Assembly: GCF_900142415.1 (NCBI RefSeq)
Contig: NZ_FRAU01000002.1
Location: 124,001-188,000, forward strand
DNA: 64,000 bases
Direction of reading: 5' to 3'
DNA from: Rhodothermus profundi
GTDB lineage: Bacteria; Bacteroidota; Rhodothermia; Rhodothermales; Rhodothermaceae
A program made the translations under genes and the position numbers. Below are positions 697 to 3,055 of the stretch, piece by piece (position 1 is the first letter of the stretch; the number at the start of each line of letters is the position of its first letter). The notes under the pieces were generated by a model. The model searched no databases. It was given only the letters and a program-made list of their open reading frames with translations, and was not told where the DNA came from.

Positions 697-1344
697 TTAG
701 AAAAGCCGTCGAAAAACGGCCCGAATGCGGCCGATGATGTAGCATCCTGGATCGTCAGGAGGAAAGACGGCTTCCAGGTATGTACGGTTGGCGGGTAGCA
801 GGTGAATCCGGTTGTTGGCGAAGACGAAGCGACGCGCCAGCAGGAGTTCGCCCACGAGGCAGGCCACCAGCTCTCGATTGGACAGGGCGTCCCGGGGGAC
901 TTCTTCGATCAGGAGCAGGTCGCCTTTGAAGATGCCGTCGCCGCTCATGCCATCATCACCTGCTCGGCCGATCAAGCAGGCGTCGGGATCAAGGCCGCGG
1001 GGGAGGAAAAAGGGATCGACAGAAAGAAAGCCGGCCGGTCGGGCTCGGAGTCGTTCCGGTTCATGGCTGGCGGTGCGACTGATAACCGGGAGGGTTGGGG
1101 CTTCGTCGGTGAGGGCAAAGGGATCTTCGGTATCGAGCAGGTGGAGGCCGCGGGCGGCGCCTGGGTCGCGGCGCAGGTAACCTTTCTTCTCCAGCGCCTG
1201 GAGTAGCTTGAAGACGCCGTTTGTAGAGCGGATGCCCAGAGCTTCGCCGATCTCCTGAAGCGTTGGGGGTTTATGATGGCGGCGCTGGTAGGCGCGGATA
1301 AATTCGTACGCTTCGTTTTGTCGAGCGGTCAGCCGTCCTTTCAT
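697..1344 (-). CDS. LexA-like repressor lacking autocleavage residues
   Basis: A 215-residue LexA-type protein: N-terminal winged helix (residues about 1-65, with QNEAYEFIRAY and PPTLQEIGEALGI) and a C-terminal S24-like fold. It aligns well to LexA, but the self-cleavage parts are altered. Where E. coli LexA has RVAAGEP with the Ala-Gly cleavage bond, this has RTASHEP. Where LexA has the catalytic Ser in SMxxxGI, this has GMSGDGI (Ser to Gly). Where LexA has the Lys in EVTVKRL, this has ELLLARR (Lys to Ala). It should therefore bind DNA but not be cleaved through RecA. Two palindromes directly upstream suggest autoregulation. It could be a paralogue of a true LexA encoded elsewhere, so no symbol is given. 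Confidence 0.85.
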   Translation of the reverse strand: MKGRLTARQNEAYEFIRAYQRRHHKPPTLQEIGEALGIRSTNGVFKLLQALEKKGYLRRDPGAARGLHLLDTEDPFALTDEAPTLPVISRTASHEPERLRARPAGFLSVDPFFLPRGLDPDACLIGRAGDDGMSGDGIFKGDLLLIEEVPRDALSNRELVACLVGELLLARRFVFANNRIHLLPANRTYLEAVFPPDDPGCYIIGRIRAVFRRLF

Positions 1345-1383
1345 GGGAGCGTGCAGGGTAAACAGGCTCCTCTAAGATAATAA

Positions 1384-1401
1384 GGTGAAAATATTTTTAC
1401 C
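1384..1401. promoter_or_regulatory. Operator candidate 1 (proximal to lexA-like gene)
   Basis: GGTGAAAATATTTTTACC, an 18-bp near-perfect palindrome with one mismatch. On the minus strand it sits immediately upstream of a TATTATCTT promoter-like sequence for the LexA-like gene. It repeats the perfect site 32 bp away. Confidence 0.6.
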
Positions 1402-1415
1402 ATATTGTTATCATG

Positions 1416-1433
1416 GGTGAAAATATTTTCACC
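1416..1433. promoter_or_regulatory. Operator candidate 2 (perfect palindrome)
   Basis: GGTGAAAATATTTTCACC is a perfect 18-bp palindrome. Its start is exactly 32 bp from that of the near-identical site at 1384, about three helical turns, so two repressor dimers could sit on the same face of the DNA. The obvious candidate ligand is the adjacent LexA-like protein; this is inference. Confidence 0.65.
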
Positions 1434-1523: not shown

Positions 1524-1552
1524 TTGACTTTTTGAAAAAATACTGTACCTTG
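1524..1552 (+). promoter_or_regulatory. Promoter of the dcw cluster (mraZ)
   Basis: TTGACT at 1524-1529 and TACCTTG at 1546-1552, with 19 bp between TTG and TA. This matches the Bacteroidota housekeeping promoter form. Predicted transcription start is near 1558, just ahead of the MraZ boxes. Confidence 0.6.
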
Positions 1553-1625: not shown

Positions 1626-2069
1626 ATGGCGAGCTTCAAGGGACAGGCCGCATACTCCGTAGACGAGAAGGGGCGGGTAGCCATCCCGGCCAAAATGCGG
1701 GCTGTCCTGAAGCCAGAGGCGAAGGGGACCTTCACGGCCACGCGCGGCTTCGAGCGTTGCATTTTTCTCTACCCGCTTGACCGCTGGGAGGAGATCGAAA
1801 TGCAGATGATGAAGCTCAATCTGTACCAGCGGGAAGCGCGCAACTTCGTGCGGCAGATTCTGCGCTGGGCCGAGGAGGTTACGTTAGACAAGCAAGGGCG
1901 TGTGGTGCTGCCCAAAGTTCTGATGGAGTTTGCAGGCATTACGGATCGGGCGCTCATCATCGGTGCGCTCGATCACATAGAGATCTGGAATCCGGCTACG
2001 TTCGAGCAGTTTGTGAACGAGCAACCCTTGGATTACGAGACGCTGGCTGAGAAAGTGATGGGGGTGTGA
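1626..2069 (+). CDS. mraZ: Division/cell wall cluster regulator MraZ
   Basis: A 147-residue protein with two SpoVT/AbrB-like swapped-hairpin domains. Each carries the MraZ DNA-contact motif: DEKGRVAIPAKMR near residues 13-25 and DKQGRVVLPKVL near 88-99. MraZ forms ring-shaped oligomers, binds TGGGN repeats and represses its own operon. It is the first gene of the dcw cluster as in most bacteria, and its likely boxes lie just upstream. The start ATG at 1626 gives the usual MASFKGQ N-terminus; no strong ribosome-binding site is seen. Its stop overlaps the rsmH start by four bases. Confidence 0.96.
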   Translation: MASFKGQAAYSVDEKGRVAIPAKMRAVLKPEAKGTFTATRGFERCIFLYPLDRWEEIEMQMMKLNLYQREARNFVRQILRWAEEVTLDKQGRVVLPKVLMEFAGITDRALIIGALDHIEIWNPATFEQFVNEQPLDYETLAEKVMGV

Positions 2070-3055
2070 GTGCGCAGCAGAAACATCGGGGGGCAGAGGC
2101 GGCGAGACCCTACGGCTCGCCGTATCATGTGCCTGTTCTTTGTCAGGCTGTTGTCGAGGGGTTGGTGACAGACCCGGCGGGGTGCTACGTGGATGCTACG
2201 ATAGGAGGGGGTGGGCACGCAGCCGCCTTGCTTAATGCGCTGGCACCCCAGGGCCGAGTTATCGGCATCGATCGAGACCCGGAGGCGCTGGAGGCTGTGC
2301 GTCATCGGCTGGGCGATGCGATTGCGGCAGGAAGGCTCCTGCTGGTGCAGGGCAACTTTGCAGACTTGGAGACCATCCTGAATCGGCTTGGAGTGGAGCA
2401 GATTGATGGGGTGCTGCTGGACCTGGGCGTCTCGTCGCACCAGCTCGACGAAGCCCTGCGGGGGTTCAGCTTCCAGGCTGCCGGGCCGCTGGACATGCGC
2501 ATGGATCCGACAAGTCCCGGTCCGACGGCTGCGCAGCTTCTGGAGCGATGGAGTGCGCACGAGCTGGCGGAGGTGTTGCGCCGCTATGGCGAAGAGCGAC
2601 GGGCCCACAAGCTGGCTCGGGCTATTTGCCAGGCGCGGCCAATCACGACGACTACGGAACTAGCCGAAGTGGTGCGGCGCGTGGTGCCCGCCCGGGAAGC
2701 GACCAAGACACTGGCGCGCGTCTTTCAGGCGCTGCGCATTGCCGTCAATGACGAGCTGCAGGCATTGGAGCGGGTGTTGGTGGCGGCTACGCGGCGCGTT
2801 CGGCCGGGCGGACGGCTGGTTGTGCTCAGTTACCATTCGCTGGAGGACCGGCGCGTAAAGCGCTTTTTGCGCTATGGCAACCTGGCCGGGGAGCCGGTGC
2901 GTGACTTCTACGGCCGCCTGCTGCGCCCCTGGCGGCCGCTGACCCGCCGGGCAATCCGACCCTCCGATGACGAAGTGGAAGCCAACCCGCGTGCCCGAAG
3001 CGCTCGCCTGCGCATTGCTGAACGCATCGCAGAGGCCGTCTCTGAAACGTCATGA
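2066..3055 (+). CDS. rsmH: 16S rRNA (cytosine(1402)-N(4))-methyltransferase
   Basis: S-adenosylmethionine-dependent methyltransferase acting on C1402 of 16S rRNA in the decoding centre (formerly MraW). The 329-residue length is normal. Visible motifs are HVPVLCQAVVEGL at the N-terminus, the SAM-binding YVDATIGGGGHAAALL, DGVLLDLGVSSHQLD, and the C-terminal VVLSYHSLEDRRVKRF. The start is GTG at 2066, overlapping the mraZ stop (GTGA), and its own stop overlaps the next ATG, so translation is probably coupled along the cluster. Confidence 0.97.
   Translation: MSAQQKHRGAEAARPYGSPYHVPVLCQAVVEGLVTDPAGCYVDATIGGGGHAAALLNALAPQGRVIGIDRDPEALEAVRHRLGDAIAAGRLLLVQGNFADLETILNRLGVEQIDGVLLDLGVSSHQLDEALRGFSFQAAGPLDMRMDPTSPGPTAAQLLERWSAHELAEVLRRYGEERRAHKLARAICQARPITTTTELAEVVRRVVPAREATKTLARVFQALRIAVNDELQALERVLVAATRRVRPGGRLVVLSYHSLEDRRVKRFLRYGNLAGEPVRDFYGRLLRPWRPLTRRAIRPSDDEVEANPRARSARLRIAERIAEAVSETS

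Follow-up and report, generated by a model that had tools for sequence, protein, structure and literature searches.

The window, a stretch of 64,000 nucleotides from Rhodothermus profundi, carries beside its division cluster a LexA paralog that has lost the residues for self-cleavage (Table 1). We put at roughly two in three the probability that this catalytically dead LexA is autorepressed via tandem operators and dedicated to the control region of mraZ and the division cluster. LexA is usually seen as a self-destructing SOS switch, and the departures from this described so far are individual ones, for instance in Synechocystis. In the old clade described here, loss of cleavage has become fixed; the clade coexists with true LexA, has a dedicated operator and stays by the division cluster.

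Table 1 Features of the LexA-like gene, mraZ and the region between them (positions in the window).
Feature	Position	Strand	Basis and remarks
Catalytically dead LexA paralog, 215 aa	697..1344	-	ORF list, Pfam, alignments, AlphaFold model
Candidate promoter of the LexA-like gene	1374..1402	-	Visual inspection of bases conserved within the genus; inferred
Operator 1, proximal, GGTGAAAATATTTTTACC, GTG-N10-TAC/CAC palindrome	1384..1401	.	Pattern search, genus alignment
Operator 2, distal, perfect palindrome GGTGAAAATATTTTCACC, GTG-N10-CAC	1416..1433	.	Pattern search, genus alignment
Candidate mraZ promoter, TTGACT...TACCTT	1524..1552	+	Near-invariant in seven Rhodothermus genomes; inferred
MraZ-box-like perfect repeat GTGGGGAAAAGTGGGGAA	1561..1578	+	Genus alignment; follows the mraZ promoter closely
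mraZ, opening the divergent division/cell-wall cluster	1626..2069	+	ORF list, neighbour identification
rsmH/mraW	2066-3055		After mraZ, followed by further dcw genes

The LexA-like gene starts with ATG. Its product has an N-terminal LexA winged helix-turn-helix (HTH; residues 4–66) and a C-terminal domain of the S24 fold (~84–215). Both domains were recognized by Pfam, as LexA_DNA_bind (PF01726; 3.8e-19, 68.7 bits, cut-off 23.7) and Peptidase_S24 (PF00717; 1.8e-8, 34.5 bits, cut-off 23.3). With the NCBIfam equivalog model for lexA, TIGR00498, the protein remained under the threshold (93.9 bits, cut-off 110.95). By phmmer, E. coli LexA paired with residues 4–192. The AlphaFold model had a pLDDT of 89 and was low only at the linker (residues 74–79). 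Compared by VIA-align, it gave Z scores of 15–17 to LexA structures, the best matches being LexA itself (3k2z, Z 17.4; 3jsp, Z 15.7); its C-terminal domain matched 1jhc with a Z of 15.2 and 2.9 Å over 125 residues. The LexA fold and HTH are thus kept, in agreement with what had been read from the sequence before. Annotation pipelines likely give such genes the plain name "lexA".

In the C-terminal domain, the residues needed for self-cleavage have been replaced. The A84-G85 cleavage bond of E. coli LexA corresponds to Ser-His in both pairwise and multiple alignments, and Ser119 corresponds to Gly132; both substitutions had been proposed in the earlier note. The same note took the catalytic Lys to be replaced by Ala, which was off by one residue. 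In pairwise, multiple and family alignments Lys156 pairs with Arg171, with ELLLA-R-RF standing opposite EVTV-K-RL. The substitutions are shared by the orthologs from the same order. Arg takes the place of Lys in all 48 full-length proteins, and Gly the place of Ser in 47, the remaining one having Ala. Ala-Gly is lost in 47 of the 48, and the sole protein that has it (L100) is likewise without Ser and Lys. Many orthologs carry Asp at the position of Gly85, the same exchange as in the engineered LexA G85D of 1jhf.

A Ser-Lys dyad relocated within the C-terminal domain is unlikely, because no Ser or Lys in this domain is conserved across the orthologs. With site, nucleophile and general base all replaced, and the changes conserved over an ancient clade, the idea of a regulator not built for SOS cleavage stands. 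The alignments strongly support the prediction that the protein is non-cleavable, and it may have been selected for stability.

Canonical LexA (E. coli 1jhf/3jso; T. maritima 3k2z) likewise combines a winged HTH with an S24-fold C-terminal domain, is autoregulated, and has a palindromic operator with 10 bp between trinucleotide half-sites. The Rhodothermus protein differs from it by the absence of Ala-Gly, Ser and Lys, by its GTG-N10-CAC operator and by its placement in a separate clade. It also appears to have a single genomic target region, linked to mraZ, instead of an SOS regulon. The parallel drawn earlier with cyanobacterial LexA is apt: the LexA of Synechocystis PCC 6803 (sll1626) also has neither an Ala-Gly site nor a catalytic Ser, and the genes under its control lie outside the SOS response (PMC7567884). 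These genes are described as many and diverse, whereas the Rhodothermus protein has a single predicted locus, has Arg for Lys and is fixed beside mraZ. IrvR of Streptococcus mutans is LexA-like and freed from RecA control (PMC7101444), but, unlike the protein studied here, it self-cleaves through its Ser-Lys dyad. The non-canonical LexA proteins of Bacteroidetes are also S24-fold repressors, from the same broad phylum. They have a CI-type HTH, an intact Ala-Gly and Ser-Lys dyad, and a true SOS response (Sanchez-Osuna 2021, PMC8565304), whereas here we found a LexA-type winged HTH and no cleavage determinants. The main text of PMC8565304 makes no mention of Rhodothermus, Salinibacter or Ignavibacteria.

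Clear orthologs were present in 49 of the 114 genomes of the order (49 distinct proteins, 48 of them full length), including all seven Rhodothermus genomes, where the other six were 88–93% identical. Most genomes of the order encode, as a separate paralog, an intact LexA that retains Ala-Gly and the Ser-Lys dyad. In a tree sampling Rhodothermales and other classes of the phylum, canonical LexA and the dead proteins lay on either side of a branch supported at 100/99, whether or not the dead members from the other classes were included. The dead members outside the order also lacked the cleavage determinants. At the seven mraZ-linked loci of other classes, the Lys position was always Arg and the Ser position was Ala, Thr or Gly. 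The Rhodothermus protein has the marks of the dead clade: DD[GATS] instead of GDS, Arg for Lys, a position in the separate clade, tandem palindromes and a divergent mraZ. Three proteins from genus g38 of the same order (L138–L140) had kept Ser119, with Arg for Lys156 and no Ala-Gly, and are possibly an intermediate or a reversal. Genomes G105 and G107 (genus g48) encoded, besides the dead paralog, a tandem pair of canonical lexA-like genes, both intact (L114, L115).

Broken copies occur in single genomes, one with an in-frame TGA (G053) and one frame-broken (G015), as would be expected from a decaying LexA remnant without function. For the Rhodothermus gene this is scarcely credible. Within the genus its dN/dS is ~0.03–0.07, on which we rejected a pseudogene, and the HTH, the operators and the replacement residues are all conserved. 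Chance or decay is ruled out by this dN/dS together with changes common to the whole clade; by these measures, the dead LexA lineage is old and constrained. In G053 (L092/L173), two operators persist upstream of mraZ, and the copy in G015 (L137) adjoins mraZ.

The 281-bp gap between the LexA-like gene and mraZ contains two palindromes of the type GGTGAAAATATTTT(C/T)ACC, 32 bp apart, which the earlier note does not mention. In the alignment of the seven Rhodothermus genomes, the conserved intergenic blocks were these two palindromes, the mraZ promoter and the MraZ-box-like repeat. The LexA box of E. coli is CTG-N10-CAG, and the Rhodothermus operator, GTG-N10-CAC, fits the NTG-N10-CAN architecture. 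Searching with the Rhodothermus consensus and allowing up to four mismatches, we found at least one site upstream of 41 of the 49 orthologs and at least two upstream of 33, compared with 0.12 and 0.0 expected from dinucleotide shuffles; the consensus site was absent in eight. By the same test, none of the 34 examined mraZ upstream regions without an adjacent paralog had sites. Operator spacings clustered at 22, 31–33, 41–43 and 54 bp, that is, ~2, 3, 4 and 5 DNA turns, which would suit a pair of dimers bound to the same side of the helix.

At several loci a diverged recognition helix is accompanied by an altered operator, with the tandem layout kept. In L020/L021, with N42 replaced by S, the sites are of the GGAGAAAA type at a spacing of 33 bp. 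The operators of L102/L105 read GGTGTAAA..., with GGTGTAAATATATAC lying 31 bp from another, similar sequence. The pairs at the remaining loci were AGTGTATATAAGTACACC and AGTGTATATATTTACACC for L138 of genus g38 (spacing 31 bp), CCTGAAAATATTTTCAGT and ACTGAATATATTTTCAGT for L182 (41 bp), and ACTGGACAGGTGTTCAGT and ACTGAACAAGTGTTCAGT for L193 (34 bp). When the seven loci from other classes were put through a simple scan, five (L184, L187, L189, L192, L216) gave no convincing tandem palindromes. The co-variation of helix and operator, although qualitative, is the best evidence that the dead LexA itself binds these sites, and its predicted recognition of its own upstream sites is strongly supported. 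Upstream of the canonical Rhodothermales lexA genes, a simple scan found no clear shared palindrome; several of these regions carry a TACTGTGTGG-like sequence, unlike the operator of the dead LexA.

In its own genome, a pattern search with up to two mismatches placed the site only at the two palindromes of the gap, and a looser half-site search added one further place, with a single, isolated site. Across the order, operator matches were mostly at the mraZ locus, and the few others were about as many as with a reversed control pattern. The earlier note had suggested looking for a second, intact lexA. We found none, nor any other S24 or LexA-type HTH protein, in the own genome (99.7% complete); sister families do have one. 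Canonical LexA was not found in any of the seven Rhodothermus genomes. Only one of them, G038, had a further S24 match, a UmuD-sized ORF of 182 codons.

As the only LexA-family protein of its genome, in a genus where canonical LexA was not found, the dead LexA could be thought to repress the DNA-repair genes of Rhodothermus and to be removed by Clp/Lon-type turnover instead of self-cleavage. We consider this quite improbable. The operator matches are confined to one locus, apart from the isolated loose match, most other genera have an intact canonical LexA alongside the ortholog, and the upstream regions of canonical lexA show a different sequence. On the operator distribution in the own genome, an SOS-regulon role was rejected. 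How Rhodothermus responds to DNA damage deserves re-examination, given that no SOS repressor is recognisable in its genomes.

With respect to promoters, the LexA-like gene has a candidate -10 element (TATCTT, 1379–1374 on the minus strand) and a weak -35 element ~17 bp upstream, and operator 1 would fill the spacer between them. Autorepression would follow from this position in the gene's own likely promoter. The likely -35 element of mraZ lies ~90 bp beyond operator 2, and therefore simple occlusion would not be the mode at mraZ; any effect there would go via looping, bending or activation, or be absent. As predicted here, the operator geometry directly supports autoregulation only. The repeat GTGGGGAAAAGTGGGGAA is presumably the autoregulatory site of MraZ (MraZ box).

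The neighbours are, as described before, a Xan_ur_permease-family protein downstream and, divergently, MraZ and RsmH. The permease is kept only within the genus, and the conserved partner is the divergent division cluster. mraZ is the divergent neighbour of 47 of the 49 orthologs, and the same arrangement was found at the three g38 loci and in seven sampled genomes from other classes (L182, L184, L187, L189, L192, L193, L216). Other dead members of the phylum, including L038, L042, L049 and L051, are without mraZ linkage. In the tree, mraZ-linked members account for most deep branches and members without the linkage are nested; the linkage therefore looks ancestral, with moderate deep support. 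The orthologs are patchy within the order, so the cluster can run without the dead LexA.

In most orthologs the operators are nearer to the start of the LexA-like gene than to that of mraZ, from which they are 180–325 bp away. They could thus serve the gene's own promoter only, with mraZ being a neighbour by chance or through shared upstream architecture and not a target. The place of operator 1 between the candidate -10 and -35 elements, and the presence of a separate promoter and MraZ boxes for mraZ, would also fit a purely local autoregulator. We regard it as unlikely, for the divergent linkage persists across the order and appears again in other classes, and a regulator of itself alone would hardly be kept at a dN/dS of ~0.05. 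In addition, operators persist by mraZ without the gene in genome G051. There, the dead LexA gene (L023) is on a contig without operators (C283), and contig C308 (L171, ~2173–2222) retains a pair of sites at a 32-bp spacing, ~500 bp upstream of its mraZ gene. This separation may be a relic of relocation or a binning or assembly artefact. The phylum-wide linkage and the operators remaining upstream of mraZ in G051 lead us to favour an effect on mraZ. The dead LexA very probably binds and represses its own gene through the tandem operators, and probably regulates the divergent division cluster.

In the proposed mechanism, the LexA paralog, unable to self-cleave, would dimerise via its S24-fold domain and bind the two tandem palindromes in the gap shared with mraZ. 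The spacing by integral helical turns would put both dimers on the same face of the DNA. Bound dimers would block the gene's own promoter and also set the expression of the mraZ-led division and cell-wall cluster. What releases them would not be RecA-induced cleavage but another signal, such as a ligand, the redox state, a modification or turnover.

The only directly relevant paper on LexA and mraZ together that we found in the open-licence literature reports in vitro binding of B. subtilis LexA upstream of a mraZ homolog from a gut metagenome (Firmicutes; PMC3998124). In that case a cleavable SOS LexA acts, whereas in Rhodothermus a dedicated, dead paralog is encoded beside mraZ. Neither a description of a family of mraZ-linked dead LexA proteins, nor anything relevant on an S24/LexA paralog without catalysis, was found in the open-licence literature. 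The family is apparently old, widespread and unreported. Its members are candidates for a second regulator acting on mraZ and the dcw cluster, and, with their co-varying operators, provide a natural series for specificity studies.

More tentatively, the dead LexA proteins might form an ancient, phylum-wide class of dedicated non-SOS regulators of mraZ and the division/cell-wall cluster. They could sense a signal through the former protease cleft and couple the state of growth or envelope to the division genes, opposite the autoregulation by MraZ. In this cleft D130-D131-G132-M133 and R171 are invariant; together with C123, they are candidates only for sensing the release signal. Cys123 is kept in 46 of the 48 Rhodothermales orthologs, and not in the other classes, and is possibly a redox or ligand site.
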